From contig OX387203.1 in NCBI GenBank assembly GCA_947561715.1, positions 10,602,001 to 10,666,000 on the forward strand: DNA of 64,000 nt, given 5' to 3'. Source of the DNA: Ascidia mentula. Taxonomy: Eukaryota > Chordata > Ascidiacea > Phlebobranchia > Ascidiidae. Numbering within the stretch: the stretch's first letter is position 1; every line of letters starts with the position of its first letter. The position numbers and the translations under genes are program-made. Below the pieces are notes generated by a model that worked only from the letters and a program-made list of their open reading frames with translations, was not told the origin of the DNA and searched no databases. Of this stretch, positions 260-41,792 are shown piece after piece.

Positions 260-3200
260 CTGCAGTGTAATTGATTGAAAACCCCTGATGTGCCCCACTG
301 CTGCCAGAAGTGAAAGTCAACCGAGCCACACTTCCAACAGAAGTAAAATTGAAACCAGATGATAGAAATCCAGAAAAATAATTTAAAGACCTATTTTCGT
401 TGTAAATCTGCGATGGTAACAGAATAATTTAACGGAAATTACAAATAATTTCTTGTTTTCCGGCACAATTGAACGTTAATTTTTATTAATGGAAATTTCG
501 CCAGCTATTCAACGAGGCTTCATCAGGATAATGCTGGGAAACAACAAATATCTTAAAATCTGATGCAAACTTTCAAACATTGTTTATATTGATGACCTTA
601 TCTCGGCATGACTCAATGTATGACTCCTTTTCGTTTGGAATTTCCATTATGTGTTATAAACTAATCAGCAAGTGCCAATCTTGGTGTAAGAGCGCACAAA
701 CTTACCCGCAATTCATCGGAACCTGATTCAGTTTCAAACAAATTCACAACGAACTTGATCACGTGATTTGGCGGGGCATTGATAAACCATTGGCAGTTTT
801 CATAGTTGTTGTAAGTTCCAGGCCAACCAGGAGATGTGAGAACTTCCGTCACGCTGACGTTTGCTATGCGATTGGTTTCGCCACATCGAGGTGTCCAGAT
901 AACTAGTGACGTAACAAAGAGTCAACAAACATACACTGTATTTTTAAATCTTGCTGTTGCAGAAATTGTTGTCACAAAACATACCAATGTGTTAAAACTG
1001 TTTCTTATACCTGCTGCGTAATTGATTGAAAACCCCTGTGCTGCACTGCTGCCAGAAGTGAAAGTCAACCGAGCCACACTTCCAACAGAAGTAAAATTGA
1101 AACCAGATGATAGAAATCCAGAAAAAGAATTCAAAGTTCTGTTTTCGTTGTAAATCTGTGTGAATAACAGAATAATTCATCGGAAATATCAAATAATTTA
1201 TGGTTTTCTGGCACAATTATTAAACGTTGATAAATATTTATGGAAATTTCGCCAGCTATTCAACGAGGCTTCATCAGGGTAATGCTGGGAAATTACAAGT
1301 TGCTTCAAATCTGATGCAATCTTTCAAACTTTATTTATATTGATGACCTTATCTCGGCATTGTGGCAACACGCATGTTTCCCTGGCCTAGTTCTGATCAG
1401 GCCGCATGTTTTCTGAAATTCAACACTGGAACACCAAACGGAAAGGATGCAGGCGGAGTTAAGCCTTCCTGCAGAGCTAAAAGCAAGCTGCTGATACTCT
1501 GCTGGACAACCACCTTTCTGACTCTTTGTTATAAAACGCCCTCGTAGTAATCGTTCGCCCTCTCTCGGTGTTCCATTATTTCTTGCCATTCGCGCTGTTA
1601 CGTTCGCATGTTCTGTTATTAGTTAATTCGCTATTCATGGGATAAACTCTTGCTAAACGCGCTTAAACCAAATTAAACTTACGCCACCTGATATTGCAAA
1701 TGTGTCTTTCATATAATAAATAAGTCTGTTCACGGAGTTTTAAATTCAGTAGTCTATACAGCAAGAACACGCAAGTAGACTTTTAGTTTCAGCACAGCAG
1801 CAGCCGACCGGGAAAAAATTGGTACGCTGCAGCACGACTCTATGCATGACACCTTTTCGTTTGGAATTTCGATACTGTGTTATAAACTAATCAGCAAGTG
1901 CCAATCTAGGTGTGCGCACAAACTTACCCGCAATTTATCAAAACTTGATTCAGTTTGAAACAAATTCACCACGAACTTGATGATGTGATTTGGTGGGGCA
2001 TTGATAAACCATTGGCAGTTTTCGTAGTTGTTGTAAGTTCCAGGCCAACCAGGGGATGTGAGAACTTCCGTCCCTCTGACGTTTGCTGTGCGGTTGGTTT
2101 CGCCACAACGAGGATTCCTGACTAGAATAACGCAATTCACAAATATTTCAAGTTTTGATTCAACACGTATAATTGCAACTTCAAGGGAAAAATATGATAG
2201 ATTTTCTTGTAAAGTGACGAATATAATTGAATACAAAATTTCCTTTTTAACAATTCATCTTTTTCATAAAATGCTACAAAAGTTTTTATACTGCATATTA
2301 ATGTCTATAAATCAGTGTTTCTTAAACTGTGAGCAACAAAACAGGCTCAGTTGTGCCGCGAACCTCATCAAACAATAACCTAAACAATGCATTTCCAAAA
2401 CACAAGGAATGCAACTTCAAAAACATACGAAAAAGCAAAACTGCAACTACCAGCTATGTAGTTGATTGAAAATCCAGAAGAAGTTTCACTTCCATCCGAA
2501 GTAAAAGTTAATCGAACCGCATTTAAATTCGTAGCGACAGTGTAACCTGACGACACAGATCCACTCAAAGAACGTAACAATGTACTTCCGCCTTGGTCGT
2601 ATATCTGCAACAGTAATATCAAAAGTCTAAAGCAGTAGCAAGTTTTCAAAACAGGGCGAGAGCTATTTTAGGGCACTGCGTTTGCTTAGATCGACACATT
2701 TTTGGTTTTCTCTTTGGCCGGATCCAAAACGCACACATTTGGCACTGTTGGAATCTTTGTTTGTTTGATATATTGCGGCAGAAGTACACTTGTGCGCCAG
2801 CTTTTGAAACAAAGAAAAATTTCGCCGGACCAAACCGTGTCTGTGATTCTTGCCTTATTCAGCCCCAATATATTTTTCTTCAAATCAAAATGACCAAACT
2901 TACCCGCAATTTATCAGAACCTGATTTAGTTCGAAACGAGTTTACGATGAATTTGATCACGTGATTTGGTGGGGCATTGATAAACCATTGGCAGTTTTCA
3001 TAGTTGTTGTAAGTTCCAGGCCAACCAGGAGATGTGAGAACTTCCGTCCCTCTGAGGCTTGCTGTGCGATTGGTTTCGCCACATCGAGGTGTCCAGATAA
3101 CTAGTGACGTAACAAAGAATCAACACACATACACTGTATTTTTAAATTTTGCTGTTGCAAAAAATGTTGTCGCAAAACATACCAATGTGTTAAAACTGTT

Positions 3201-6200
3201 TCTTATACCTGCTGCGTAATTGACTGAAAACCCCTGATATGCTCCACTGCTGCCAGAAGTGAAAGTCAACCGAGCCACACTTCCAACAGAAGTAAAATTG
3301 AAACCAGATGATAGAAATCCAGAAAAAGAATTTAAAGTTCTATTTTCGTTGTAAATCTGTGTGAATAACAGAATAATTCATCGGAAATATCAAATAATTT
3401 ATGGTTTTCTGGCACAATTATTAAACGTTGATAATTATTTATGGAAATTTCGCCAGCTATTCAACGGGGCTTCATCAGGGTAATGGTGGAAAATTACAAG
3501 TTGCTTCAAATCTGATGCAAACTTTCAAACTTTATTTATATTGATGACCTTATTCGGCATTGTGGCAACACGCATGTTTCCCTGCTGGCCTAGTTCTGAT
3601 CAAGCCGCATGTTTTCTGAAATTCAACACTGGAACACCAAACGGAAAGGATGCGGTCGGAGTTAAGCCTTCCTGCAGAGCTAAAAGCAAGCTGCTGATAC
3701 TCTGCTGGACAACCACGTTTTTCTGAATCTTTGTTATCAAACGCCCTCGTAGTAATCGTTCGCCCTCTCTCGGTGTGCCATTTTTTCTTGCCATTCGCGC
3801 TGTTACGTTCGCATGCTCTGTTATTAGTTAATTCGCTATTCATGGGATAAACTCTTGTTAAACGCGCTTGAACCAAATTAAACTTACGCCACCTGGTATT
3901 GCAAATGTGTCTTTCATATAATAAATAAGTCTGTTCACGGAGTTTTAAATTCAGTAGTCTATACAGCAAGAACACGCAAGCAGACTTTTAGTTTCAGCAC
4001 AGCAGCAGCCGACCGGGAAACAATTGGTACGCTGCAGCACGACTCTATGCATGACTCCTTTTCGTTTGGAATTTCCATAATGGGTTATAAACTAATCAGC
4101 AAGTGCCAATCTAGGTGTGCGCACAAACTTACCCCCAATTTATCGGAACTTGATTCAGTTTGAAACAAATTCACCACGAACTTGATCACGTGATTTGGTG
4201 GGGCATTGATAAACCATTGGCAGTTTTCATAGTTGATGTAAGTTCCAGGCCAACCAGGCGATGTGAGAACTTCCGTCCCTGTGACGTTTGCTGTGCGGTT
4301 GGTTTCGCCACAGCGAGGATTCCTGACTAGAATAACGCAATTCACAAATATTGGAAGTTTTGATTCAACACGTATAATTGCAACTTCAAGGGAAAAATAT
4401 GATAGATTTTCTTGTAAAGTGACGAATATAATTGAATACAAAATTTCCTTTTTAACAATTCATCTTTTTCATAAAATGCTACAAAAGTTTTTATACTTCA
4501 TATTAATGTCTATAAATCAGTGTTTCTTAAACTGTGAGCGACGAAACAGGCTCAGTTGTGCCGCGAACCTCATCAAACAATAACCTAAACAATGCATTTC
4601 CAAAACACCAAGGAATGCAACTTAACAAACATACGAAAAAGCAAAACTGCAACTACCAGCTATGTAGTTGATTGAAAATCCAGAAGAAGTTCCACTTCCA
4701 TCCGAAGTAAAAGTTAATCGAACTGCATTTAGATTCGTAGCGACAGTGTAACCTGACGACACAGATCCTCTCAAAGAAAGTAACAATGTACTTCCGCCTT
4801 GGTCGTATATCTGCAACAGTAATATCAAAAGTCTAAAGCAGTAGCAAGTTTTCAAAACAGGGCGAGAGCTATTTTAGGGCACTGCGTTTGCTTAGATCGA
4901 CACAATTTTGGTTTTCTCTTTGGCCGGATCCAAAACGCACACATTTGGCACTGTTGGAAACTTGGTTTGTTTGTTATATTGCGGCAGAAGTACACTTGTG
5001 CGCCAGCTTTTGAAACAAAGAAAAATTTCGCCGGCCCAAACCGTGTCTTTGATTCCTGCCTTATTCAGCCCCAATATATTTCTCTTCAAATCAAAATGAC
5101 CAAACTTACCCGCAATTTATCAGAACCTGATTTAGTTCGAAACGAGTTTACGATGAATTTGATCACGTGATTTGGCGGGGCATTGATAAACCATTGGCAG
5201 TTTTCATAGTTGTTGTAAGTTCCAGGCCAACCAGGAGATGTGAGAACTTCCGTCCCTCTGAGGCTTGCTGTGCGATTGGTTTCGCCACATCGAGGTGTCC
5301 AGATAACTAGTGACGTAACAAAGAATCAACACACATACACTGTATTTTTAAATTTTGCTGTTGCAAAAAATGTTGTCGCAAAACATAACAATGTGTTAAA
5401 ACTGTTTCTTGTACCTGCTGCGTAATTGATTGTAAACCCCTGATATGCTCCACTGCTGCCAGAAGTGAAAGTCAACCGAGCCACACTTCCAACAGAAGTA
5501 AAATTGAAACCAGATGATAGAAATCCAGAAAAAGAATTTAAAGTTCTATTTTCGTTGTAAATCTGTGTGAATAACAGAATAATTCATCGGAAATATCAAA
5601 TAATTTATGGTTTTCTGGCTCAATTATTAAACGTTGATAATTATTTATGGAAATTTCGCCAGCTATTCAACGAGGCTTCATCAGGGTAATGCTGGGAAAT
5701 TACAAGTTGCTTCATATCTGATGCAAACTTTTAAACTTTATTTATATTGATGACCTTATTCGGCATTGTGGCAACACGCATGTTTCCCTGGCCTAGTTCT
5801 GATCACGCCGCATGTTTTCTGAAATTCAACACTGGAACACCAAACGGAAAGGATGCAGGCGGAGTTAAGCCTTCCTGCAGAGCTAAAAGCAAGCTGCTGA
5901 TACTCTGCTGGACAAACACGTTTTTCTGAATCTTTGTCAAAAAACGCCCTCGTAGTAATCGTTCGCCCTCTCTCGGTGTGCCATTATTTCTTGCCATTCG
6001 CGCTGTTACGTTCGCATGTTCTGTTATTAGTTAATTCGCTATTCATGGGATAAACTCTTGTTAAACGCGCTTGAACCAAATTAAACTTACGCCACCTGGT
6101 TTTGCAAATGTGTCTTTCATATAATAAATAAATCTGTTCAAGAAGTTTTAAATTCAGTAGTCTATACAGCAAGAACACGCAAGCAGACTTTTAGTTTCAG

Positions 6201-9200
6201 CACAGTAGCAGCCGACCGGGAAACAATTGGTACGCTGCAGCACGACTCTATGCATGACTCCTTTTCGTTTGGAATTTCCATAATGGGTTATAAACTATTC
6301 AGCAAGTGCCAATCTAGGTGTAAGAGCGCACAGACTTACCCGCAATTTATCGGAACTTGATTCAGTTTGAAACAAATTCACCACGAACTTGATGACGTGA
6401 TTTGGTGAGGCATTGATAAACCATTGGCAGTTTTCATAGTTGTTGTAAGTTCCAGGCCAACCAGGGGATGTAAGAACTTCCGGCCCTCTGATGTTTGCTG
6501 TGCGGTTGGTTTCGCCACAACGAGGATTCCTGACTAGAATAACGCAATTCACAAATATTTGAAGTTTTGATTCAACACGTATAATTACAACTTCAAGGAA
6601 AAAGTATGACCAGTTTTCTTTCAAACCGTCGAATATAATTAAATACAAAATTTCCTTTTTAACAATTCATCTTTTTCATAAAATGCTACAAAAGTTTTTG
6701 TACGACATAGTAATGTCTATAAATCAGTGTTTCTTGAACTGTGAGCGACGAAACGGGCTTAGATGTGCCGCGAACCTCATCAAACAATAACCTAATCAAT
6801 GTATTTCCAAAACACCAAGGAATGTAACTTCAAAAACACACGAAAATGCAAAATTGCAACTACCAGCTATGTAGTTGATTGAAAATCCAGAAGAAGTTCC
6901 ACTTCCATCCGAAGTAAAAGTTAATCGAACCGCATTTAAATTCGTAGCGACAGTGTAACCTGACGACACAGATCCACTCAAAGAACGTAACAATGTACTT
7001 CCGCCTTGGTCGTATATCTGCAACAGTAATATCAAAAGTTTAAAGCAGTAGCAAGTTTTCAAAACAGGGCGAGAGCTATTTTAGGGCACTGCGTTTGCTT
7101 AGATCGACACAATTTTGGTTTTCTCTTTGGCCGGATCCAAAACGCACACATTTAGCGCTGTTGGAATATTTGTTTGTTTGTTTGTTATATTGCGGCAGAA
7201 GTACACTTGTGCGCCAGCTTCTGAAACAAAGAAAAATTTCGCCCGTGCAAACCGTGTCTGTGATTCCTGCCTTATTCAGCCCCAATATATTTCTCTTCAA
7301 ATCAAAATGACCAAACTTACCCGCAATCTATCAGAACCTGATTTAATTCGAAACGAGTTTACGATGAATTTGATCACGTGATTTGGCGGGGCATTGATAA
7401 ACCATTGGCAGTTTTCATAGTTGTTGTAAGTTCCAGGCCAACCAGGAGATGTGAGAACTTCCGTCCCTCTGAGGCTTGCTGTGCGATTGGTTTCGCCACA
7501 TCGTGGTGTCCAGATAACTAGTGACGTAACAAAGAATCAACACACATACACTGTATTTTTAAATTTTGCTGTTGCAAAAAATGTTGTCGCAAAACATCAG
7601 AATGTTTTAAAACTGTTTCTTGTACCTGCTGCGTAATTGATTGTAAACCCCTGATATGCTCCACTGCTGCCAGAAGTGAAAGTCAACCGAGCCACACTTC
7701 CAACAGAAGTAAAATTGAAACCAGATGATAGAAATCCAGAAAAAGAATTTAAAGTTCCATTTTCGTTGTAAATCTGTGTGAATAACAGAATAATTCATCG
7801 GAAATATCAAATATTATCTGGCTTTCTGTCACAATTATGAAACGTTGATAATTATTTATGGAAATTTCGCCAGCTATTCAACGAAGCTTCATCAGGGTAA
7901 TGCTGGGAAATTACAAGTTGCTTCAAATCTGATGCAAACTTTTAAACTTTATTTATATTGATGACCTTATACGGCATTGTGGCAACACGCATGTTTCCCT
8001 GGCCTAGTTCTGATCAGGCCGCATGTTTTCTGAAATTCAACACTGGAACAAAGAACGGAATGGATGTAGGCGGAGTTAAGCCTTCCTGTAGAGCTAAAAG
8101 CAAGCTGCTGATACTCTGCTGGACAACCACGTTTTTTCTGACTCTTTGTTATAAAACGCCCTCGTGGTAATCGTTCGACCCCACTCGGTCTGCCATTATT
8201 TCTTGCCATTCGCGCTGTTACGTTCGCATGTTCTGTTGTTAGTTAATTCGCTATTCATGGGATAAACTCTGGTTAAACGCGCTTGAACCAAATTAAACTT
8301 AAGCCACCTGGTATTGCAAACGTGTCTTTCATATAATAAATAAGTCTGTTCACAGAGTTTAAAATTCAGTAGTCTATACAGCAAGAACACGCAAGCAGAC
8401 TTTAGTTTCAGCACAGCAGCAGCCGACAGGGAAACAATTGGTACGCTGCAGCATGACTCAATGCATGACACCTTTTCGTTTGGAATTTCCATTATGTGTT
8501 ATAAACTAATCAGCAAGTGCCAATCTAGGTGTAAGAGCACACAAACTTACCCGTAATTTATCGGAACCTGATTCAGTTTGAAACAAATTCACCACGAACT
8601 TGATCACGTGATTTGGTGGGGCATTGATAAACCATTGGCAGTTTTCATAGTTGTTGTAAGTTCCAGGCCAACCAGGAGATGTGAGAACTTCCGTCCCTCT
8701 GACGTTTGCTGTGCGATTGGTTTCGCCACAACGAGGATTCCTGACTAGAATAACGCAATTCACAAATATTTGAAGTTTTGATTCAACACGTATAATTGCA
8801 ACTTCAAGGGAAATATATGATAGATTTTCTTGTAAAGTGTCGAATATAATTGAATACAAAATTTCCTTTTTAACAATTCATCTTTTTCATAAAATGCTAC
8901 AAAGGTTTTTATACTTCATATTAATGTCTATAAATCAGTGTTTCTTAAACTGTGAGCGACGAAACAGGCCCAGGTGTGCCGCGAACCTCATCAAACAATA
9001 ACCTAAACAATGCATTTCCAAAACACCAAAGAATGCAACTTAACAAACATACGAAAAAGCAAAACTGCAACTACCAGCTATGTAGTTGATTGAAAATCCA
9101 GAAGAAGTTCCACTTCCATCCGAAGTAAAAGTTAATCGAACCGCATTTAAATTCGTAGCGACAGTGTAACCTGACGACACAGATCCACTCAAAGAACGTA

Positions 9201-12200
9201 AAAATGTACTTCCGCCTTGGTCGTATATCTGCAACAGTAATATCAAAAGTCTAAAGCAGTAGCAAGTTTTCAAAACAGGGCGAGAGCCATTTTAAGGCAC
9301 TGCGTTTGCTTAGAGCGACACATTTTTGGTTTTCTCTTGGGCCGGATTCAAAACGCACACATTTGGCGCTGTTGGAATCTTTGTTTGTTTGTTATATTGC
9401 GGCAGAAGTACACTTGTGCGCCAGCTTTTGAAACAAAGAAAGATTTCGCCGGTGCAAACCGTGTCTGTGATTCCTGCCTTATTCAGCCCCAATATATTTC
9501 TCTTCAAATCAAAATGACTAAACTTACCCGCAATATTTCGGAACCAGTTTGAAACAAATTCACCATGAATTTGATCACGTGATTTGGTGGGGCATTGATA
9601 AACCATTGGCAATTTTCATAGTTGTTGTAAGTTCCAGGCCAACCAGGAGATGTGAGAACTTCCGTCCCTCTGAGGTTTGCTGTGCGATTGGTTTCGCCAC
9701 ATCGAGGTTTCCAGATAACTAGTGACGTAACAAAGAGTCAACAAACATACACTGTATGTTTAAATCTTGTTGTTGCAGAAAATGTTGACACAAAACACAA
9801 CAATGTGTTAAAACTGTTTCTTATACCTGCTGCGTAATTGATTTTAAACCCCTGATGTGCTCCACTGCTGCCAGAAGTGAAAGTCAACCGAGCCACACTT
9901 CCAACAGAAGTAAAATTGAAACCAGATGATAGAAATCCAGAAATAGAATTTAAAGTTCTATTTTTGTTGTAAATCTGCGATAGTAACAGAATAATTCATC
10001 GCAAATATCAAATAATTTCTTGTTTTCTTGCACAATTATTATACGTTGATTTTTATCAATGGAAATTTCGCCAGCTATTCAACTCGACTTCATCAGAATA
10101 ATGGTGGGAAATTACAAGTTGCTTCAAATCTGATGCAAACTTTCAAACTACTTTGTTCATGTTGATGATCTTATTCGGCATTGTGGCAACACGCATGTTT
10201 CCCTGGCCTAGTTCTGATCAGGCCGCATGTTTTCTGAAATTCAACACTGGAACAAAGAACGGAAAGGATGTAGGCGGAGTTAAGCCTTCCTGTATAGCTA
10301 AAAGCAAGCTGCTGATACTCTGCTGGACAACCACGTTTTTTATGACTCTTTGTTATAAAACGCCCTCGTAGTAATCGTTCGACCCCACTCGGTCTGCCAT
10401 TATTTCTTGCCATTCGCGCTGTTACGTTCGCATGTTCTGTTGTTAGTTAATTCGCTATTCATGGGATAAACTCTTGTTAAACGCGCTTGAACCAAATTAA
10501 ACTTACGACACCTGGTATTGCAAACGTGTCTTTCATATAATAAATAAGTCTGTTCACAGAGTTTAAAATTCAGCAAGAACACGCAAGCATACTTTAGTTT
10601 CAGCACAGCAGCAGCCGACCGGGAAACAATTGGTACGCTGCAGCATGACTCAATGCATGACACCTTTTCGTTTGGAATTTCCATTTTGTGTTATAAACTA
10701 AACAGCAAGTGCCAATCTAGGTGTAAGAGCACACAAACTTAACCGTAATTTATCGGAACCTGATTCAGTTTGAAACAAATTCACCACGAACGTGATCACG
10801 TGATTTGGCGGGGCATTGATAAACCATTGGCAGTTTTCATAGTTGTTGTAAGTTCCAGGCCAACCAGGAGATGTGAGAACTTCCGTCCCTCTGACGTTTG
10901 CTGTGCGATTGGTTTCGCCACATCGAGGTGTCCAGATAACTAGTGACGTAACAAAGAGTCAACAAACATACACTGTATTTTTAAATTTTGCTTTTGCAGA
11001 TAATGTTGTCACAAAACATACCAATGTGTTAAAACTGTTTCTTATACCTGCTGCGTAATCGATTGAAAACACCTGATGTGCTCCACTGCTGCCAGAAGTG
11101 AAAGTCAACCGAGCCACACTTCCAACAGAAGTAAAATTGAAACCAGATGATAGAAATCCAGAAAAAGAATTTAAAATTCTATTTTCGTTGTAAATCTGCG
11201 ATAGTAACAGAATAATTCATCGGATATAACAAATTGTTCAAAATCTAAAGTAAGCTTTTAAACTTTGTTTATATTGATGACCTTATCGTGGAATAATTCT
11301 ACGTATAACTCATTATCGTTCAACATTCCTTTAGAGCAGTGTTTCCCAACCATTTTTGGTGGTGGCGTACCACTTCGAGGTAAAACAATTTCAACGCCTA
11401 CCACCTAGTTGAATGTTACAAAGTAACCTAGTGGATGAAGTAACCAACATTTTGAGATCACTTAGGATATTTTTAAATTCGAGCTATATCCCTTAATTAC
11501 GGAAATGTGCTCGCGTAACACCGGGAATGCCGTCGGGCACCGCTAGTGGTACGCGTACCACCGGTTCGGAAACACTGCTTTAATGTGTTATAAACTAATC
11601 AGCAAGTGCCAATCTAGGTGTGTAAGAGCGCACAAACTTACCCGCAATTGTTCGGAACCTGATTCAGTTTGAAACGAATTCACCACGAACATAATCACGT
11701 GATTTGGTGGGGCATTGATAAACCATTGGCAGATTTCATAGTCGTTGTAAGTTCCAGGCCAACCAGGAGATGTGAGAACTCCCTTTCTTCTGAGGCTTGC
11801 TGTGCGGTTGGTTTCGCCACAACGATGATTCCGGACTAGAATAACGCAATTCAGAAATATTTGAAGTTTTGATTCAACACGTATAGCAACTTCAAGGGAA
11901 AAATATGATTAGTTAAAATGCTGCGAAAGTTTTTATACGACGTATTGATGTCTCTAAATCTGTGTTTCTTTAACTGTGTGCGACGAAACAGGGTCAGGTG
12001 TGCCGCGAACCTCATCAAAATAATCTAAACAATGCATCTCTAAACACCAAGGAATGTAACTCAAAAACATACGAAAAAGCAAAACTGCATCTACCAGCTA
12101 TGTAGTTGATAGAAAATCCAGAAGAAGTTCCACTTCCATCCGAAGTAAATGTTAATCGAACCGCATTTAAATTCGAAGCGACAGTGGAACCTGACGACAC

Positions 12201-15200
12201 AGATCCACTCAAAGAACGCAACAATGTACTTCCGCCTTGGTCGTATATCTGTAATAGTAATATCAAAAGTTTAAAGCAGTAGCAAATTTTTGAAACAAGG
12301 CAGGAGCAATTTCAGGGCACTGCGTTTGCTTAGAACGACACATTTTTGGTTTTGTCTTTAGCCATATCCAAAACACACACACTTTGCTCTGTTGGAATAT
12401 TTGTTTGTTATATTGTGGCAGATGTACACTTGTGCGCAAGCTTTTGAAACAATGAAAGATTTCGACAAATCAAGAAATGGTAATCTAGGTGTGTAAGAGC
12501 GCACAAACTTACCCGTAATTTATCGGAACCTGATTCAGTTTGAAACAAATTCACCACGAACTTGATCACGTGATTTGGCGGGGCATTGATAAACCATTGG
12601 CAGTTTTCATAGTTGTTGTAAGTTCTAGGCCAACCAGGGGATGTGAGAACTTCCGTCCCTCTGACGTTTGCTGTGCGGTTGTTTTCGCCACAACGAGGAT
12701 TCCTGACTAGAATATCGCAATTCACATATATTTTAAGTTTTGATTCAACACGTATAATTACAACTTCAAGGCAAAAATATGATAGGTTTACTTGTAAAGT
12801 GTCGAATATAATTAAATACATAATTTCCTCTTTAAAAATTCGTATTTTTTACAATGACATATTAATGTCTCTAAATCAGTGTTTCTTTAACATTGTGTGC
12901 GATGAAACGGGCTCAGGTGTGACGCGAATCTCATCAAAAATAAAGGCAACAATGCATGTCTAAAACACCAAGGAATGCAACTTAAAAAACATACGAAAAA
13001 GCAAAACTGCAACTACCAGCTATGTAGTTGATTGAAAATCCAGAAGAAGTTCCACTTCTATCCGAAGTAAATGTTAATCTAATCGCATTTAAATTCGAAG
13101 CGACAGTGGAACCTGACGACACAGATCCACTCAAGGAACGGAACAATGTACTTCCGCCTTGGTCGTTTATCTGCAATAGTAATATCAAAAGTTTAAAGCA
13201 GTAGCAAGTTTTTTAAACAAGTAAGGAGCAATTTTAGGGCACTGCGTTTGCTTAGATCGACACATTTTTGGTTTTCTCTTTGGCCGGATCCAAAACACAC
13301 ACACTTTGCTCTGTTGGAATCTTTGTTTGTTTGTTATATTGTCGCAGATTTTCGCTCGTGCGACAGCTTACGTTAAAACAAAGAAAGATTTCGCCGGCGC
13401 AAACCATATGTGTGGCCCCGGACTTATTTAGCCCCAAGATACTTTTCATTAAATCAGAATGACTCAACAAAAAAGTGTTGAAACTTACTTTGAGATAGTC
13501 ATAACCTGATTCAGTTTGAAACGAATTCACCTCGGATTTGATCACGTGATTTGGCGGGGCAATAATAAACCATTGGCAGTTTTCATAGTTGTTGTAATTT
13601 CCAGGCCAACCAGGAGATGTAAGGACTTTCTCCACACTGACACTTGCTGTGCGGTTGGTTTCGCCACAACGAGGATTCCGGACTAGAATAACGCAATTCA
13701 CAAATATTGAAAGTTTTGATTCAAAACGTATAATTTCAACTTCAAGGGAAAAATATAATAGTTAAAAAGCTGTGAAAGTTTTTATACGACGTATTAATGT
13801 CTCTAAATCAGTGTTTCTTTAACTGTGTGCGGCGAAACAGGGTCAGGTGTGCCGCGAACCTGATCAAACAATAATCTAAACAATGCATGTCTAAACACCA
13901 AGGAATGTAACTTCAAAAACACACGAAAAAGCAAAACTGCAACTACCAGCTATGTAGTTGATTGAAAATCCAGAAGAAGTTCCACTTCCATCCGAAGTAA
14001 ATGTTAATCGAACCGCATTTAAATTCGTAGCGACAGTGGAACCTGATGACACAGATCCACTCAAAGAACGGAACAATGTACTTCCGCCTTGGTCGTATAT
14101 CTGTAATAGTAATATCAAAAGTCTAAAGCAGTATCAAGTTTTTCTCACAGGGCAAGAGGAATTTTAGATCACTGCGTTTGGTTAGATCGACACATTTTTG
14201 ATTTTCTCTTTGGCCGGATCCAAAACACACAAACTTTGCGCTGTTGGAATATTTGTTTGTTTGTAATATTGTCGCAGATGTGCGCTCGTGCGACAGCTTG
14301 CGATAAAACAAAAAAAAATTTCGCCGGCGCAAACCGTGTCTGTTATCCCTGCCTTATTCAGCCCCTATATATTTTTCATCAAATTAAAATGACCAAACTT
14401 ACCCGCAATTTATCGGAACGTGAGTAAGTTTGAAACGCGTTTACGATGAATTTGATCACGTGATTTGGCGGGGCATTGATAAACCATTGGCAGTTTTCAT
14501 AGTTGTTGTAAATTCCAGGCCAACCAGGAGATAAGAGAACTTCCGTCACGCTGAGGTTTGCTGTGCGATTGGTTTCGCCACAACGAGGTGTCCAGATAAC
14601 TAGTGACGTAACAAAGAGTCAACAAACATGGGTTGTATTTTTATATTTTGTTGTTGCAGAAAATGTTGTCACAAAACATACCAATGTTTTAAAACTGTTT
14701 CTTATACCTGCTGCGTAATTGATTGTAAACCCCTGATGTGCTCCATTGCTGCCAGAAGTGAAAATCAACCGAATCACACTCCCAACAGAAGTAAAATTGA
14801 AACCAGATGATAGAAATCCAGAATAAGAATTTAAAGTTCTGTTTTCGTTGTAAATCTGCGATAGTAACAGAATAATTCATCGGAAATATCAAAATGTTCA
14901 AAATCTAAAGTAAGCTTTTAAACTTTGTTTATATTTATGACCTTATCGTGGAATAATTCTACGTATAACTCATTATCGTTCGACATTCCTTTAGAGCAGT
15001 GATTCCCAACCATTTGGTGGTTGCATATCACTTCGAGGTAAAACAATTTCAACGCGTACCACCTAGTTGAGTGTTACAAAGTAACCTAGTGGATGAAGTA
15101 ACCAACATTTTGAGATCACTTAGGATTTTTTTAAATTCGAGCTTTAGGCTATCCCTTAATTACGGAAATTTGCTCGCGTACCACCTGGAATGCCGTCGCG

Positions 15201-18200
15201 TACCACCTGGAATGCCGTCGCGTACCACTAGTGGTACGCGTACCACCGGTTTGGAAACACTGCTTTAATGTGTTATAAACAAATCAGCAAATGCTAATCT
15301 AGGTGTGTAAAAGCGCACAAACTTACCCGTAATTTAGCGGAACCTGATTCAGTTTGAAACGAATTCACCACGAACTTAATCACGTGATTTGGCGGGGCAT
15401 TGATAAACCATTGACAGATTTCATAGTTGTTGTAAGTTCCAGGCCAACCAGGAGATGTGAGAACTTCCGTCCCTCTGAGGTTTGCTGTGCGATTGGTTTC
15501 GCCACAACGATGATTCCGGACTAGAATAACGCAATTCACAAATATTTGAAGTTTTGATTCAACACGTATAATTGCAACTTCAAGGAAAAAATATGATAGG
15601 TTTTCTTGTGAAGTTTCGAATATAATTAAATGCAAAATATCCTCTTTAACAATTCATATATTTTTGCAATGACATATTAATGTCTCTAAATCAGGGTTTC
15701 TTTAACTGTGTGCGATGAAACGGGCTCAGGTGTGCCGCGAATCTGATCAAAAATAAACGCATCAATGCATGTCTAAAACACCAAGGAATGTAACTTCAAA
15801 AACATACGAAAAAGCAAAACTGCAACTACCAGCTATGTAGTTGATTGAAAATCCTGAAGAAAATACACTTCCATCCGAAGTAAATGTTAATCGAATCGCA
15901 TTTAAATTTGTAGCGACAGTGGAACCTGACGACATAGATCCACTTGAGGAACGTAACAATGTACTTCCGCCTTGGTCGTATATCTGTAATAGTAATATCA
16001 AAAGTTTAAAGCAGTAGCAAGTTTTCAAAACAGGTCGAGAGCTATTTTTGATCACTGCGTTTGCTTAGAGCGATACATTTTTGATTTTCTCTTTGGCCGG
16101 ATGCAAAACACACACATTTTGCTTTGTTGGAATATTTGTTTGTTTGCTATATTGTGGCAGATGTACACTTGTGCGCCAGCTTTTCAAACAAAGAAAGATT
16201 TCGCCGGCGCAAACCGTGTCTGTGATTCCTGCCTTATTCAGCCTCAATATATTTTTCTTCAAATCAAAATGACCAAACTTACCCGCAATTTATCACAACA
16301 TAATTCAGTTTGAAACGAGTTTACGATGAATTTGATCACGTGATTTGGTGGAGCATTGATGAACCATTGGCAGTTTTCATAGTTGTAGTAAGTTCCAGGC
16401 CAACCGGGAGATGTGAGAACTTCCGTCACGCTGACGTTTGCTGTGCGATTGGTTTTGCCACAACGAGGTGTCCAGATAACTAGTGACGTAACAAAGAGTC
16501 AACAAACATACACTGTATTTTTTTTTTGTTGCAGAACATGTTGTCACAAAACATACCAATGTGTTAAAACTGTTTCTTATACCTGCTGCGTAATTGACTG
16601 AAAACCCCTGATGTGCTCCACTGCTGCCAGAAGTGAAAGTCAACCGAGCCACACTTCCAATAGAAGTGAAATTGAAACCAGATGACAGAAATCCAGAAAA
16701 AGAATTCAAAAATCTATTTTCGTTGTAAATCTGCGATAGTAACAGAATAATTCATCGGATATAACAAATTGTTCAAAATCTAAAGTAAGCTTTTAAACTT
16801 TGTTTATATTTATGAGCTTATCGTGGAATAATTCTTCGTATAACTCATTATCGTTCGATATTCCTTTAGGGCAGTGATTCCCAACCATTTGGTGGTTGCA
16901 CACAACTTCGAGGTAAAAAATTTGAACGCGTACCAACTAGTTGAGTGTTACAAAGTAACCTAGTGGATGAAGTAACCAACATTTTGAGGTCAATTACGAA
17001 TTTTTAAATTCGAGCTATATCCCTTAATTACGAAAATGTGCTCGCGTACCACCTGGAATGCCGTCGCGTACCAGTATTGGAACCCGTACCACCGGTTTGG
17101 AAACACTGATTTAATTTGTTATAAACTAATCAGCAAGTGCTAATCTAGGTGTGTAAGAGCGCACAAACTTACCCGCAATTTATCGGAACCTGATTCAGTT
17201 TGAAACGAGTTTACGATGAATTTGATCACATGATTTGGTGGGGCATTGATAAACCATTGGCAGTTTTCATAGTTGTAGTAAGTTCCTGGCCAACCGGGAG
17301 ATGTGAGAACTTCCGTCACGCTGACGTTTGCTGTGCGATTGGTTTCGCCACAACGAGGTGTCCAGATAACTAGTGACGTAACAAAGAGTCAACAAACATA
17401 CACTGTATTTTTTTTGTTGCAGAACATGTTGTCACAAAACATACCAATGTGTTAAAACTGTTTCTTATACCTGCTGCGTAATTGATTGAAAACCCCTGAT
17501 GTGCTCCACTGCTGCCAGAAGTGAAAGTCAACCGAGCCACACTTCCAATAGAAGTAAAATTGAAACCAGATGACAGAAATCCAGAAAAAGAATTTAAAGT
17601 TCTATTTTCGTTGTAAATCTGCGATGGTAACAGAATAATTCATCGGAAATTACAAATAATTTCAGGTTTTCTGGCACAATGAAACGATAATTTTTATTGA
17701 TGGAAATTTCGTCAGCTATTCAACGAGGTTTTATCGGGGTAATGTTGGGAAACAACAAATTTCTTAAAATCTGAAACAAACTTTAAAATTTTCGTTTGGA
17801 ATTTCCATAATGTGTTATAAACTAATCAGCAAGTGCCAATCTAGGTGTAAGAGCGCACAAACTTACCCGCAATTGATCGGAACTTGATTCAGTTTGAAAC
17901 GAATTCACCACGAACTTGATTACGTGATTTGGCGGGGCATTGATAAACCATTGGCAGTTTTCATAGTTGTTGTAAATTCCAGGCCAACCAGGAGATAAGA
18001 GAACTTCCGTCACGCTGACGTTTGCTGTGCGATTGGCTTCGCCACAACGAGGTGTCCAGATAACTAGTGACGTAACAAAGAGTCAACAAACATACACTGT
18101 ATTTTTATATTGTGTTGTTGCAGAAAATGTTGTCACAAAACATACCAATGTGTCAAAACTGTTTCTTATACCTGCTGCGTAATTGATTGAAAACCCCTGA

Positions 18201-20047
18201 TATGCTCCACTGCTGCCAGAAGTGAAAGTCAACCGAGCCACACTTCCAACAGAAGTAAAATTGAAACCAGATGATAGAAATCCAGAAAAAGAATTTAAAG
18301 TTCTATTTTCGTTGTAAATCTGCGATGGTAACAGAATAATTCATCGGAGATTACAAATAATTTCTGGTTTTCTGGCTCAATTAAACGTTAATTTTTATTG
18401 ATGGAAATTTCGTCAGCTATTCAACTCGACTTCATGAGAATAATGCTGGGAAATTACAAGTTGCTTCAAATCTGATACAAACTTTGTTTATATTGATGAC
18501 CTTATCTCGCCATGACTCTATGTATGACTACTTTTCGTTCGGAATTTCCATAATGTGTTATAAACTAATCAGCAAGTGCCAATCTAGGTGTGTAAGAGTG
18601 CACAAACTTACCCGGAATTTATCGGAACCTGATTCAGTTTGAAACGAATTCACCACGAACTTAATCACGTGATTTGGCGAGGCATTGATAAACCATTGGC
18701 AGATTTCATAGTTGTTGTAAGTTCCAGGCCAACCAGGAGATGTGAGAACTTCCGTCCCTCTGAGGCTTGCTGTGCGGTTGGTTTCGCCACAACGATGATT
18801 CCGGACTACAATAACGCAATTCACAAATATTTGAAGTTTTGATTCAACACGTATAATTGCAACTTCAAGGCAAAAATATGATAGGTTTTCTTGTGAAGTG
18901 TCGAATATAATTGAATACAAAATTTCCTCTTTACAATTCATATATTTTTACAATGACATATTAATGTCTCTAAATCAGGGTTTCCGTTACTGTGTGCGAT
19001 GAAACGGGCTCAGGTGTGCCGCGAATCTTATCAAAAATAAACGCAACAATGCATGTCTAAAACACCAAGGAATGTAACTTCAAAAACATACGAAAAATCA
19101 AAACTGCAACTACCAGCTATGTAGTTGATTGAAAATCCAGAAGAAGTTACACTTCCATCCGAAGTAAATGTTAATCGAACCGCATTTAAATTCGCAGCGA
19201 CAGTGGAACCTGACGACACAGATCCACTCAAAGAACGTAACAATGTATTTCCGCCTTGGTCGTATATCTGTAATAGTAATATCAAAAGTCTAATGCAGTA
19301 GCAAGTTTTTATAACAGGGCAAGAGCAATATTAGGGCACTGCGTTTGCTTAGATCGACACATTTTTGGTTTACTCTTTGGCCGGATCCAAAACACACACA
19401 TTTTGCTCTGTTAGAATCTTTGCTTGTTTGTTTTATTGACACAGATTTTCGCTCGTGCGAAAGCTTACGTTAAAACAAAGAAAGATTTCGCCGGCGCAAA
19501 CCATGTTTGTGGCCCCGGACTTATTTAGCCCTAAGATACTTTTCATTAAATCAGAATGACTCAACATAAAAGTGTTGAAACTTACTTTGAGATTGTCATA
19601 ACCTGATTCAGTTTGAAACGAATTCACCACCAATTTGATCACGTGATTTGGCGGGGCAATAATAAACCATTGGCAGTTTTCATTGTTTTTGTAATTTCCA
19701 GGCCAACCAGGAGATGTAAGGACTTTCTCCACACTGACACTTGCTGTGCGGCTGATTTCATGACATGGAGAACTCCAAAATACTTCGACAATATTGGTAA
19801 GTATTTAGGTTTGATATTATTTAATTTTTATCGCAAATAATTTTTATCGATGTCAAATAAGTGATGTGTGAGGTTACTTTTTTATTGCTTGAATAAATTT
19901 GCTACAGGGACTTGAAAACCGCATCATATTCCCCTATAGTTATTTTTTCGTATTTACTTTTGATGATGTCGAAAAGTAAGTCCTACCTGTATTGAACATC
20001 ACAAGAAAGCCAAAATTAATTTGCAATGCAAGCCGTTTGTTCATCAT
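260..20047 (-). CDS. Receptor gene B: signal peptide plus 20 CUB domains, 3' end beyond window
   Basis: Not a gene I can name; it is the expanded paralog of gene A (35772-41792). The signal-peptide exon is 19987-20047 (starts MMNKRLALQ, donor GTAGGA). Twenty CUB modules follow, each an N exon then a C exon, listed 5' to 3': 19586-19782/19114-19267, 18612-18805/18172-18319, 17867-18063/17471-17618, 17173-17369/16583-16730, 16283-16479/15830-15983, 15327-15520/14708-14855, 14403-14599/13947-14100, 13489-13682/13017-13170, 12513-12706/12095-12248, 11642-11835/11048-11195, 10743-10939/9827-9974, 9528-9718/9075-9228, 8551-8744/7626-7773, 7321-7517/6864-7017, 6340-6533/5415-5562, 5110-5306/4657-4810, 4133-4326/3209-3356, 2904-3100/2451-2604, 1928-2121/1011-1155, 706-902/260-407. 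N exons run phase 1 to 0 and C exons 0 to 1, so each module is symmetric and the whole stays in frame (about 2,326 codons). Typical cores are LTSPGWPGTYNNYENCQW and SSGFSINYIAG. By analogy with gene A, a CCP-Ig-membrane end should lie left of the window. An extracellular recognition role is inference. Confidence 0.85.
1361..1834. repeat. 0.47-kb intronic repeat, copy in CUB19 intron
   Basis: Starts tgtggcaacacgcatgtt and ends ggtacgctgcagcac. Equivalent introns without it (for example 18.32-18.61 kb) read straight from 'cttatctcg' to 'ccatgactctatg', so it is an insertion. Further copies sit at 3561-4040, 5767-6243, 7978-8454, 10182-10645 and, in gene A, 39774-40238, always in the same intron position, so they were multiplied with the CUB units. 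No clear terminal repeats or coding capacity. Confidence 0.6.
2451..9718 (-). repeat. 2.2-kb higher-order tandem repeat, four units of two CUB modules
   Basis: Units begin at N exons with the VIWTPRCG-type start, ending at 2904, 5110, 7321 and 9528, which gives spacings of 2206, 2211 and 2207 bases. Each unit holds a VIWT-type N exon with a 154-nt C exon (IYDQGGST start), then a VRNPRCG-type N exon with a 145-148-nt C exon (IYNENRT start). Introns are repeated along with exons and are almost as alike as the exons, which points to recent unequal crossing-over rather than old duplication under selection. The two flanking modules (9827-10939 on the right, 260-902 on the left) follow a different pairing. 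Confidence 0.85.
3561..10645. repeat. 0.47-kb intronic repeat, four further copies in gene B
   Basis: Copies at 3561-4040, 5767-6243, 7978-8454 and 10182-10645, each in the long intron between a VRN- or VIWT-type N exon and its C exon. They are near identical to one another and to 1361-1834. The span given covers all four; the sequence between them is CUB exons and introns. Confidence 0.6.
11337..11577. mobile_element. hAT-type MITE, copy 1 (CUB10 intron)
   Basis: Inverted ends CAGTGTTTCCCAACC and GGTTCGGAAACACTG flank a 241-bp non-coding element. The flanks ctttagag and ctttaatg are an imperfect 8-bp target duplication, as expected for hAT elements. It lies in an intron of gene B. Confidence 0.7.
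14997..15262. mobile_element. hAT-type MITE, copy 2 (CUB6 intron)
   Basis: Same element and same flanks (ctttagag / ctttaatg) as 11337-11577, 266 bp, with a short internal duplication of the 'gcgtaccacctggaatgccgt' type near the right end. Identical flanks show it was copied with the CUB module and not inserted independently. Confidence 0.7.
16872..17108. mobile_element. hAT-type MITE, copy 3 (CUB4 intron)
   Basis: Third copy, 237 bp, in the equivalent gene B intron. Ends cagtgattcccaacc and ggtttggaaacactg. More divergent than the other two. Confidence 0.65.
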
Positions 20048-22925: not shown

Positions 22926-23362
22926 AAAGGTTGCATTTATAGGAGTGTGGTGATTACAAAGTGCTTGTTGTAATGTTTGAGTTGACACGGAATCCAATCC
23001 GCAGCCCCACAGAAACAACATGCCTATGTTTTGCAAAGTACCACAAACAATTTTCACTTCCTCCAATCCCAGTTTGTTGTAACTGATATCGAAAACTTCC
23101 AACTGCAAACAAAAACTCCGCGATTTGAAAGCACTAAGTCCTCCAAACATACAAGTAACGTCATCGTACCGTTATATTCATTTTCTTAATTCCGTTGCAA
23201 ATCAACGTCAACGATTCACAGTTAAGGCCGCATCCTATTGGCCACAGTTTACAGCTACTTCCCTTGAGTATTGGAAGAAAATTTGCCAATGCATAACACG
23301 CAGTTGGGGGCATAGGTGTATGCCAAAATCTTCTGAACATTCTTGTAGATCGATCAATAGCT
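22926..23362 (-). CDS. Leucine-rich-repeat exons (ribonuclease-inhibitor type), partial gene
   Basis: Exon 23170-23362 ends CGLNCESLTLICNGIKK.. and exon 22926-23102 reads LEVFDISYNKLGLEEVKI.. then FLWGCGLDSVSTQTLQQAL. The join is in phase (donor gtacga, acceptor tttgcag). The C-G-L and L.DISYNKLG patterns are the LRR type found in RNase inhibitor and NLR proteins. The exon at 22926-23102 is 59 codons and ends at a gtaag donor. I find no start, no NACHT or other partner domain, and no convincing next exon, so this is either a fragment of an LRR gene or a relic. Confidence 0.5.
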
Positions 23363-35771: not shown

Positions 35772-38700
35772 TTAAAATGTCTCGTACGCATTTTCATCAG
35801 GTTGGGAAGTAGCATGCGTGACGTCGACATTGCAGTATGCAGCAGGGTCAGGTTGTTCGTTTGTCGATCTTTCAACAACACTGCAACGACGAGAAATTTT
35901 TCACAGACGAGAATTTTAAACCCAATTTATATGAGGTTTGTGAAATATGAAAACTCACTGCTGTCCTCTGTCCTGTGGGTTGCGATTTTCAACGACTTTC
36001 ATTTCTATTCCTTCAGGCTGGACGTCTGCAAAAAAACCATAGACCTTGTAGTGGTATAAAGAGTAGTGGTTTATAAGAAATATTGTGTTAGAAAGTCATA
36101 TACTGATTAATACGAAACATACAAATATTTTCGCCACACGTAATTAAATTTCTCTCCTGGTCGATGCGCAACTCAACATCTATCGAGTAATCTCGTCATA
36201 TTTCGTTATCACAAGTTTGAAAGATTTTCGAGAACGATTGTTTACCTTTTTTTGCAGCTGATGCCAGGCAACACAGCCTTATCCCAAACCCTGTTGCTAT
36301 GAGAGTAACAAGTCCCAGACCAAAGGATAACAGCAATGTAAGGAGGGTGTGTGTCGGTGCTAGTATTGCTTCAACCATTACTACTACTTTCTTCTCAACG
36401 TAAAATGGAGGTCCGGACCTGATGGTAATGGAGTAGTTTCCAAGATCGCGTTCAGAAACCTTAAAAAAATGTTTTCATCAACACTTTCGGTATTAAAATT
36501 TGCGCATATTACTCCAAAGCTACCTTCGTAAACAATAGGTCGATTCGGTTTTGAGTCCCGTTGGAAAATAACTTTGCGATTGTAACCTCGGCACCTGTTA
36601 AGCAAACAAGTATTTCACATAAACCCGTGAAACAAATCACAGTATTAGATAAACTTTGCTTGATTCAGATTTTAAAAAAAAATACATCAAATAATTGTCA
36701 GAGGAACTGCTTGTAGAAGTTTAAATGCAAACGAGGCGAAAAGCTTGGAGAAAGCACAGTGCTACGGATGCGTCACAAACCGAAAGCCTCCAAAGGATTG
36801 AAATACAAAGAAAGAAACTGATACCTCCTTTCATCACCACAACATCCCCGTTTCCACGAATTGGCGGATTTGACGGAAACCCGAATCCCACAGACGCTTT
36901 CTCTTGTAGTCTGACCTTTTTCAATATTATGGTTTCGTCGATTTTGGGAGGAACTTGCAACAATTAAAGGACTGTTAATCTTAGAAAAGACAGGTCTCCA
37001 TTAAATACTATTCACGGCTAACGAACCTACAAAATTGATGTTTTTGTGTTGCTGTCTCGTAACAATTTACAACTCAATACAAAAAATTTTTATACTCAAT
37101 TAAAATTCTTGCATCCTTACATTGAACTTTTAGTTTCAGTGATTTGGTTTCTGTTTCCTTGTAATCTTCCGAACTCTGATGACACGTCACTAATGATCCG
37201 TGATCTGATGACGTCAAGCGGATGGTCGCTGAAGCGAACTAAATATATTATTAAGAAGTTAGGTTTGACAACATGTGGATCATCGCTTTATGAAAAGCGG
37301 CTTCATAAAATTGTTCTAACCATACCTCTTTCCTAACAAGCTGAAGATTGTGCACAGTCATATTTATGAAATGCATTTTCCCACTGAATTTATCGCAGAA
37401 TATCAAAACTAATTCCCCCTCTTTCAATGCAGATGTATTTCTGAGTGAGTTGAAATCCAAAAGCGTACCTAAATTCATTCAACATTTAATAAGTGAGACG
37501 AGTTTAACAACGCCATTGTGGAACTAAAAAGTTTCATATTTCAAACGTTTTGTTTCCGTGTCTTAAAATATTTTGTGCAAAAATCAGACGCTTTCAGAAA
37601 ACATACTGGCATTGTTATTCTTGCTAACGTTACACTTTATTATCTAAGAGCATTGTTTAGTTTAGTTTACTTTCACCAACCGTTCCAGCATTGGTAAGGG
37701 ACGCTCCATTCAGCAGTTTCGGTGCAGGACATTGTGACGTTTCGACCGACCGCAGCTGAGTTATCAACGAAAACAGAATCCTTGCATTGTGCAGTTACCT
37801 GTGTGCTGTATGTCCATGGCCGTTGATTTGTAAGTTGTACAATTTTAAAGTTTGAAAGAGAAGGGCAATCTAAAACAAACGAAACAAAGTTTACAAACCT
37901 ATCTATTCTTGACTTATTCGAACGCTTCTCGATGAGTTTACACTGTTTTTAATGTTATTTTGTGAGATAACGAATGCATTAGATACCTTTCAAAATTATT
38001 CTTGGACTTCCCAGATGGGATTGTTTGCAGCAACAAGATATAATTCTAAGTACGCTCCTGTTAAACATAGACGGGGAAAGGATTGTAACGTTAAGGAAGT
38101 GATTGTCCATTAATCGCAGTGTTGACACCCGCACACCGATAGTTTTGTCAGTTATGGGATTGGGACTCGAAGGTTTGTATATTGCCAACAGCTCACTTCT
38201 CCCATTCATTGCTTCCTTCAACAAGTATAGATCGAAATCCTTAGTTGCCGGCCCGTAGTAGGTTATATGGAATAATATGGTGATGTTTGGAACACCAGTA
38301 GACCATATAAAACTTGGACTCGCGTAGTTTCCGACCGATCGCACAGAAGCGTGCCAGCATGTTTCTAGAAAAGACGAATTGTGGAAATTTCAACATTGTT
38401 GTTAATCTTGATCTCAGCAAATGATCCAGAGGCTCGAGGTTTTTGTTCAGAAATGTCTGTTATGCGCCGGAAAGTGGCATAAATTTCTCAATGACTTTTC
38501 TCTATACTTCCTATGTCTTGATATATAACAAAACAATTGGTGTAAAATTTCGCAAAGTAAGGCAGTGGTGAATTTTGCAAGTGTTTTCAACAATAAGCAT
38601 TGTGTTTTTAATTTGTTCTACTACATAGGAAACGACTACGCAAAATACACAAATGTTAAACTACATATTATACCTGCAGTGTAATTGATTGAAAACCCCT

Positions 38701-41700: not shown

Positions 41701-41792
41701 ACTTTTAACGATGTCGAAAAGTAAGTCCTACCTGTATTGAACATCACAAGAAAACCAAAATTTATCTGCAATGCAAGCCGTTTGTTCATCAT
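35772..41792 (-). CDS. Receptor gene A: CUBx3 - unknown module - CCP - Ig-like x2 - TM - short tail
   Basis: Complete by exon model, 838 aa. Exons 5' to 3': 41732-41792 (signal peptide), 41331-41527 and 40859-41012 (CUB1, to residue ~137), 40335-40528 and 39425-39572 (CUB2, ~138-251), 39120-39316 and 38674-38821 (CUB3, ~252-366), 37987-38364 (126-residue module of unknown fold with NIT, NVT and NRS sites), 37681-37869 (Sushi/CCP, four Cys, ending ETAEWSVPYQCW), 37326-37468 and 37121-37238 (Ig-like 1; Cys in LVLIFC and DHGSLVTCHQ), 36825-36953, 36524-36594 and the start of 36246-36459 (Ig-like 2; SERDLGNYSITI motif), membrane helix at about residues 748-769 in 36246-36459, then 35959-36025 and 35772-35880 (tail, stop TAA). 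All exon phases agree. The tail has Tyr818 in AAYCNV, which fits the pYxN Grb2 SH2-docking pattern, and Tyr835 in NAYETF. Polyadenylation signals lie at 35620-35625 and 35559-35564. The donor after the CCP exon (GTTGGT) is weak and is chosen because it keeps frame. Cell-surface recognition is inferred from the domains; the ligand is unknown. Confidence 0.82.
39774..40238. repeat. 0.47-kb intronic repeat, gene A copy
   Basis: Same insertion at the same intron position (between exons 39425-39572 and 40335-40528) as in the gene B units, so the insertion predates the gene A/gene B split. The section around 40100-40150 is shortened relative to the gene B copies. Confidence 0.6.

Follow-up and report, generated by a model that had tools for sequence, protein, structure and literature searches.

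An ascidian gene with twenty CUB domains, a predicted giant membrane receptor resembling fester co-receptors in domain order

A 64,000-nucleotide stretch of the genome of the ascidian Ascidia mentula (the window) carries, on its minus strand, a gene made up largely of repeated CUB exons, here called gene B. What kind of protein would such a gene encode, and which known recognition or uptake receptors, if any, does it resemble?

The CUB array of gene B

We searched with exon-built HMM profiles, trained on peptides of six N and four C exons from the same gene B array, and found strict alternation of 20 N and 20 C exons on the minus strand (19765-258), each CUB domain being split into one N and one C exon (Table 1). 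All of the CUB exons are open (40/40) and, joined to the signal-peptide exon (n=41), yield 6,979 nt, or 2,326 codons plus one base, with 0 stops. This bears out two claims of an earlier, sequence-only reading, namely that 20 alternating N/C exon pairs keep frame and that more than 2,300 residues follow a single signal peptide. The same reading had proposed ‘at least 20’ CUBs in a gene leaving the window: the gene does exit the window, but the CUB count (window 260-20047) is exactly 20 and only the non-CUB tail lies outside. Phase 1 holds for the intron that follows the signal peptide and for the 19 that separate CUBs, phase 0 for the 20 that split a CUB; 40 of 41 donors are GT, the exception being TT at 10743 in the N exon of CUB 11.

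The domain search of translated exons that had been suggested places the genes among CUB-domain proteins, gene A by Pfam profile and gene B by the array-built exon HMMs: Pfam CUB (PF00431) matches three stretches of gene A, a three-CUB paralog, with E=3.8e-42, and a genome-wide six-frame Pfam search, in which only the best candidates were scored, lists one stretch from the gene B array (window 19529-19729, E=3.7e-7). The description of the CUBs as near-identical holds within unit types, four two-CUB blocks of 2.2 kb being 95-96% identical with 80-112 substitutions per pair, but not beyond them: a fifth block is about 82% identical, and N exons of modal length compared across the cluster (n=53) go down to 81%.

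Table 1. Positions of gene B and gene A features within the window; for CUBs, the N exon precedes the C exon
Feature	Exons	Span	Strand	Basis or remark
Gene B exon 1, start codon and signal peptide, phase-1 donor		19987..20047	-	joined reading frame; best 11-residue hydropathy 1.88
B CUB 1, first-unit type	19782-19586, 19267-19114	19114..19782	-	HMM, joined frame
B CUB 2	18805-18612, 18319-18172	18172..18805	-	HMM, joined frame
B CUB 3	18063-17867, 17618-17471	17471..18063	-	HMM, joined frame
B CUB 4	17369-17173, 16730-16583	16583..17369	-	HMM, joined frame
B CUB 5	16479-16283, 15983-15830	15830..16479	-	HMM, joined frame
B CUB 6	15520-15327, 14855-14708	14708..15520	-	HMM, joined frame
B CUB 7	14599-14403, 14100-13947	13947..14599	-	HMM, joined frame
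B CUB 8	13682-13489, 13170-13017	13017..13682	-	HMM, joined frame
B CUB 9	12706-12513, 12248-12095	12095..12706	-	HMM, joined frame
B CUB 10	11835-11642, 11195-11048	11048..11835	-	HMM, joined frame
B CUB 11	10939-10743 (donor TT, not GT), 9974-9827	9827..10939	-	HMM, joined frame
B CUB 12	9718-9528, 9228-9075	9075..9718	-	HMM, joined frame
B CUB 13	8744-8551, 7773-7626	7626..8744	-	HMM, joined frame
B CUB 14	7517-7321, 7017-6864	6864..7517	-	HMM, joined frame
B CUB 15	6533-6340, 5562-5415	5415..6533	-	HMM, joined frame
B CUB 16	5306-5110, 4810-4657	4657..5306	-	HMM, joined frame
B CUB 17	4326-4133, 3356-3209	3209..4326	-	HMM, joined frame
B CUB 18	3100-2904, 2604-2451	2451..3100	-	HMM, joined frame
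B CUB 19	2121-1928, 1155-1011	1011..2121	-	HMM, joined frame
B CUB 20, last; tail exons beyond window	902-706, 407-260	260..902	-	HMM, joined frame
B four tandem higher-order units, about 2.2 kb, two CUBs and introns each		697..9511	-	fifth, diverged unit starts 9513
Gene A, 16 exons, 838 aa predicted	signal peptide 41792-41732	35772..41792	-	exon model; Pfam CUB
A CUB1	41527-41331, 41012-40859		-	exon model
A CUB2	40528-40335, 39572-39425		-	exon model
A CUB3	39316-39120, 38821-38674		-	exon model
A module ‘Ig1’, about 125 aa (name only, Ig fold not established)		37987..38364	-	
A sushi/CCP exon		37681..37869	-	exon model; copy alignment
A Ig2	37468-37326, 37238-37121	37121..37468	-	exon model; weak profile matches
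A Ig3 and transmembrane segment	Ig3: 36953-36825, 36594-36524, start of 36459-36246	36246..36953	-	profile; hydropathy
A cytoplasmic tail, tyrosines in AYCNV and AYETF-stop	36025-35959, 35880-35772	35772..36025	-	

The membrane-proximal part

Leftward extension, proposed as the way to CCP, Ig and membrane exons, located them at -50 to -2615, where gene B continues with exons for a module of ~125 residues, a sushi domain, a pair of Ig-like domains, a membrane span and a tail with tyrosines; its predicted product is about 2,780 aa long. Because gene B carries these module-sushi-Ig-Ig-membrane-tail exons as paralog A does, the DNA predicts a giant membrane receptor, as had been suggested from the paralog, and one of type I. 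In both genes the tail frame is open up to a stop codon. The membrane 19-mers score 2.08 (A) and 2.77 (B), the type I layout (signal peptide plus single membrane span) being read from hydropathy alone.

Domain assignments in this part differ in firmness. The sushi residues C, Y, C, C, W and C are invariant in seven aligned copies (a shortened copy on contig C1 was left out), and Pfam Sushi (PF00084) matches five of the seven, with a best E of 4.3e-4; gene A's own exon is without a match, and its sushi and Ig pieces gave no match to sushi or Ig families in Pfam. The module labelled Ig1 was found in ten copies, one of which was left out, and keeps C2, W3, W20, G23, F100 and C110 in 9/9 aligned copies. 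Its predicted structure is all-beta at low confidence (pLDDT 61); Pfam gave no Ig match to it, the PDB a single non-significant row for an antibody heavy chain (E=0.26), and the fold matches inspected include no Ig. With an Ig2-Ig3 profile, 10 of the 11 PDB rows at E<=1 are Ig-superfamily chains and one is VirB11; the best rows, SYG-2 (0.0088) and CD22 (0.011), are weak, with best single-stretch i-E values of 0.82 and 0.13. The core motif of the tail is YCNV in genes A, B and G and YCNA in J and K, and the tail of I is broken.

A young cluster that includes broken copies

CUB counts in the cluster are 3 in A, 15 in K, 19-20 in J, 20 in B and about 21 in L (a 21-exon series); D, F, G, H and I are broken, and there is an inverted fragment. 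Compared with A, D, F, H, I, J, K and L, gene B shows 91-99.5% identity in the first-exon region. Because CUB number varies among paralogs whose first exons are this similar, we judge array and cluster to be young, in agreement with the fast expansion proposed earlier. The DNA itself shows the order and phases of the exons, their open frames and the spread from 3 to 21 CUBs among paralogs.

Paralogs also lie elsewhere in the genome. On contig C73, a different chromosome, a signal peptide in locus L037 (4265) is followed by Ig1, sushi, Ig2 and TM-exon matches, and the CUB-exon HMM found no match in the locus. Since its Ig2 match is interrupted by a stop and no first Ig3 exon was detected, the locus partly shows a CUB-less paralog of the expected order, perhaps a broken one. 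On contig C1, four N and four C exons, the first N exon being truncated where the piece ends, precede Ig1, Ig2, Ig3a and TM matches.

Pooled dN/dS of the cluster CUB exons is 0.40 for N exons and, for C exons, 0.84 at one length and 1.08 at the other; it indicates no clear diversifying selection. Among 231 distinct variants in 123 exon units, 8.6 stops would be expected under neutrality and 0 were observed (P about 2e-4), which speaks for constraint. Gene B has lesions: besides the CUB 11 donor, the Ig2a donor is TT, with an in-frame GTAAGG 12 nt upstream, and Ig1 has lost 45 nt in frame, including a cysteine invariant in nine aligned copies.

Candidate explanations and known systems

In the passages cited (PMC12065747), the fester co-receptors (FcoR), reported from one colonial ascidian, Botryllus schlosseri, have a signal peptide, a variable-type Ig, a sushi domain, two C2-type Ig domains, a single TM and a tyrosine tail with ITIM, hemITAM or core Y-x-x-I/L/V, in 520-610 aa; the gene adjoins a HECT ligase gene and pairs with a fester gene. 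We lean, if narrowly, towards reading gene B as an FcoR-like receptor with a signalling role that acquired a phase-1 CUB module directly after its signal peptide, the module then being multiplied by unequal crossing-over. In this scenario the module, with phase-1 introns on both sides, would have landed in the intron of the same phase that follows the signal peptide of an FcoR-like gene; exchange between two-CUB blocks would have shifted CUB number with the frame intact. Weighing against this reading are the lesions of gene B, the YCNA motif of J and K, the weak or missing profile matches of the tail modules and the lack of clear diversifying selection in dN/dS. The array may act as a long, many-headed recognition arm, with ligand contact putatively read out via tail tyrosines and SH2-type signalling; the receptor would then sit on blood cells or on other surfaces and recognise non-self, self or microbes in a germline-encoded way. 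As for FcoR neighbours, 0 of 70 HECT matches fall within C71:10.3-10.7 Mb, and no fester-type partner was seen on contig C71, every Ig1 or sushi match lying inside CUB genes or remnants; a diverged partner would escape this search. A bolder version, which we regard as a long shot, has array length and unit order form a germline-variable identity code on the FcoR-like receptor, alleles differing by two-CUB blocks and inter-array matching or avidity deciding contact, immune or self-sterility responses.

An array acting on egg or sperm, as a self-sterility or species barrier, is unlikely but has several points in its favour: self-fertilisation is blocked in A. mentula (PMC7344649), and EBR1, the sea urchin egg bindin receptor, sets a precedent with its repeated CUB and thrombospondin-1 units, as described in PMC9265791. 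The recent change in CUB number among the paralogs would suit such a role as well. Themis and VC70, ascidian self-sterility proteins named in these passages, are however, as far as we know, of other kinds. That an assembly error accounts for part of the CUB number, or that gene B is a decaying copy without a full protein, seems improbable. The donor lesions, the lost cysteine, the broken neighbours with the inverted fragment and the alike J exons at 701 bp spacing point that way; against it stand the open CUB exons, the giant paralogs J and K with the series in L, and an assembly described as built on 74-fold HiFi reads at QV 64.9. The four similar blocks, moreover, differ at enough sites that HiFi reads should resolve them.

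Decidedly improbable, in our view, is a cubilin-type endocytic or scavenger receptor taking up diverse ligands with its many CUBs, even with cubilin as the closest solved CUB by sequence (E=6.5e-18). A separate dense CUB-exon series at C71:5.85-5.88 Mb resembles, by inspection, the cubilin gene, and gene B runs into sushi-Ig-TM exons, so that gene B was rejected as the cubilin gene of this genome. Gene B also has a membrane span of its own and belongs to a young cluster, whereas cubilin, according to the passages cited, is anchored through amnionless (PMC6283879). If the FcoR-like reading is correct, a solitary phlebobranch would share this receptor plan, in part with arrays of 3 to 21 CUBs, and the plan would extend beyond Botryllus allorecognition; two questions would become testable: the role of such receptors where colony fusion is absent, and how the repeat array of a receptor arm grows while in frame.

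Among known systems, cubilin shares the long array and the closest CUB of solved structure, but its likely series lies about 4.7 Mb from the young, clustered array of gene B on the same contig, and to our knowledge cubilin has no sushi-Ig-TM-tail part. Hydractinia Alr proteins resemble the predicted products of the cluster genes in being membrane proteins from gene clusters that combine Ig-like domains with tyrosines in the tail; they are cnidarian and, as far as we know, lack CUB and sushi domains. EBR1, a large recognition protein, shares the repeated CUB units but belongs to the ADAMTS family with thrombospondin repeats, and no FcoR-like part is described in the passages cited (PMC9265791). 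As for FcoR, the post-CUB order of gene B (first module, sushi, two Ig-like domains, single TM, tail), compared at the level of domain order, equals the published one, genes A, B and G share the tyrosine tail with a Y-x-x-V core, and in both systems clusters of several genes occur on two or more chromosomes. The A. mentula genes differ in carrying 3-21 CUBs after the signal peptide, ahead of the first module, in their length, from 838 aa (A) to that of gene B against the FcoR range given above, and in belonging to a solitary rather than a colonial ascidian.

CUB array and tail of gene B

Exon HMMs run over the minus strand of gene B, the predicted receptor, placed 20 N exons and 20 C exons – the two exons into which each CUB domain is split – in strict alternation, and joining the 40 CUB exons to the signal-peptide exon yielded 6,979 nt with zero stops. 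The perfect alternation of 20 in-frame pairs proposed in the sequence-only reading is thus borne out. All 40 CUB acceptors are AG and 40 of the 41 donors GT, the exception being a TT behind the N exon of CUB-11. Introns are in phase 1 between domains and phase 0 inside them, so that adding or removing a whole CUB, or a block of CUBs, leaves the reading frame intact. Four of the 2.2-kb two-CUB blocks (introns included) are 95-96% identical, with a fifth at ~82%.

The same reading had called for a leftward extension to find CCP, Ig and membrane exons; left of the window, the tail exons of gene B form the same set as those of its paralog gene A and stay open to a stop codon, giving a predicted total of ~2,780 aa. 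The 16 exons of gene A stay in open frame from end to end and would encode 838 aa: a signal peptide, then 3 CUBs, a module of 125 aa labelled Ig1, sushi, Ig2, Ig3, a membrane span and a tail containing YCNV and, at its end, YETF. Relative to gene A, gene B has lost 45 nt in frame in Ig1 as well as the donor of Ig2a; 12 nt upstream of the lost donor lies a GTAAGG that is in frame. The sushi assignment is supported through relatives, and that of Ig2 and Ig3 by a consistent though weak PDB profile result; D-x-G-x-x-x-C and D-L-G-N-Y patterns, seen by eye, agree with the latter. The Ig1 module is conserved across nine aligned copies from three clusters, and none of the tests run on it gave an Ig fold.

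Gene cluster and its surroundings

The window occupies C71:10602001-10666000. We surveyed the cluster by fetching 220 kb leftward and searching the genome (195.8 Mb in 79 contigs); no CUB exons were found in the 42 kb examined to the right of gene A. Among at least 151 CUB matches in the genome, the top ones lie in this cluster on contig C71, followed by matches on contigs C73 and C1 at 49-63% identity. In its first-exon region gene B shares 91-99.5% identity with genes A, D, F, H, I, J, K and L and 84% with an inverted fragment; genes B and J have 3.8 kb in common at 99.5% identity, and long tail matches between gene B and other members stand at 92-96%. The tails of genes J and K run uninterrupted to a stop codon, but no AG precedes the last-exon start as placed. 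A stray last tail exon, downstream of gene B, and a partial N exon, within gene J, are traces of earlier rearrangement. Three ORFs that on reading resemble RYK kinase and WDR82 are probably conserved genes at the right border of the cluster.

Features of the cluster and related loci (negative positions lie left of the window; n, CUB N exons)
Feature	Position	Strand	Remarks
Gene A	41792-35772	-	n=3
Gene B	20047-260	-	n=20
Gene B tail exons	-50 to -2615	-
Stray last tail exon	-12048 to -12151		downstream of gene B
Inverted fragment	-48.4 to -45.9 kb
Gene D		-	n=3; frame broken in third C exon; no cytoplasmic exons found
Gene F		-	n=5; end broken
Gene G			retains one C exon
Gene H		-	n=3; no tail exons found
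Gene I		-	n=3, two C exons; tail broken
Gene J		-	n=20 (one partial), 19 C exons
Partial N exon in gene J	-154639 to -154502
Gene K		-	n=15
Gene L		-	n=21; only first part fetched
N-exon match beyond gene L	C71:10343744-10343926	+	72% identity
NLR-type LRR-like ORF	22893-23171	-	between genes A and B; copies between other paralogs
Cysteine-rich ORF	24395-24577	-	short; trypsin-inhibitor-like by eye
Reverse-transcriptase and GIY-YIG-like ORFs	28314-29337	-	Penelope-type retroelement by eye
ORF, 804 aa	44282-46696	+	C2H2-like start; transposon-like by eye
ORF with LGCWRDTANYAIPTLEG stretch	50193-50552	-	WSC-like by eye
RYK-/WDR82-like ORFs	57204-57509, 58524-58874, 62007-62396	+
NACHT-type NLR ORF	L034, window coordinate 78386-79750	+	by eye
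LRR-like ORFs	L034, ~80.6-81.3 kb		by eye; near NACHT-type ORF
Dense CUB exon series	C71:5853424-5882635
HECT ligase matches	C1:2847184-2848677		~39 kb from C1 CUB/Ig receptor cluster

Constraint, origin and possible roles

In 123 of the 148 minus-strand exon matches, chosen as open and full-length, 231 distinct variants would be expected to produce 8.6 stops without selection; 0 were observed (P ~2e-4, approximate because of common descent, gene conversion and the way matches were chosen). Pooled dN/dS values (0.40, 0.84 and 1.08) show the N exons to be constrained and the C exons little so; neither analysis demonstrates positive selection.

Most likely, exon shuffling placed a CUB module after the signal peptide, consistent with the intron phases, and the array was then enlarged, again most likely, through unequal crossing-over of two-CUB blocks. 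The predicted product would be a long multivalent receptor arm signalling via its tail tyrosines. Haemocyte recognition, microbe binding and a block to self-fertilisation, the last reported for Ascidia mentula (PMC7344649), are candidate roles.

Host, relatives and known counterparts

Glycine is, by eye, the best-fitting reading of 16 AGA/AGG codons in the COX1 match on the mitochondrial contig (19,461 bases), judged at conserved positions, as in the ascidian mitochondrial code; two GH6 matches fit a tunicate. The DNA almost certainly comes from the solitary phlebobranch sea squirt Ascidia mentula, whose published assembly (HiFi 74-fold, QV 64.9) spans 197.0 Mb in 95 scaffolds with a mitochondrial genome of 19.46 kb (PMC11109543).

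An 8-kb piece of C1 carries four CUBs, of which the first is truncated at the boundary of the piece; after them come Ig1, a shortened sushi, Ig2, Ig3a and a TM exon. In the piece fetched from C73, the signal peptide is followed directly by Ig1, then sushi, Ig2 and a TM exon, with no CUB-exon match. Ig3a was not detected there and a stop lies inside the Ig2b match, which may mean that the copy is broken or diverged. Contig C67 has Ig2/Ig3 matches.

The solved structures nearest to the cluster CUB are cubilin, then the neuropilins. In the cubilin alignment, aspartates of cubilin stand opposite those of the stretches S-D-K-L and T-S-D-G-S; the shorter C-exon type reads T-S-G-S-S at the latter, so that the full putative calcium site would be retained in just one of the unit types. 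Elsewhere on C71, a dense series of CUB exon matches looks like a cubilin gene.

HECT ligase matches lie near the C1 receptor cluster, a proximity that could be chance; the Botryllus fester co-receptors (FcoR) adjoin HECT genes (PMC12065747). In that 2025 review the whole word CUB occurs in the reference list only (12 times, in 4 places). It gives 53 FcoR loci, a plan of signal sequence, variable Ig, sushi, two C2 Ig, TM and tail, and tail motifs of the ITIM, hemITAM or Y-x-x-I/L/V kind. Past their CUBs, the predicted Ascidia mentula receptors have the same putative domain order as FcoR, a likeness of architecture.
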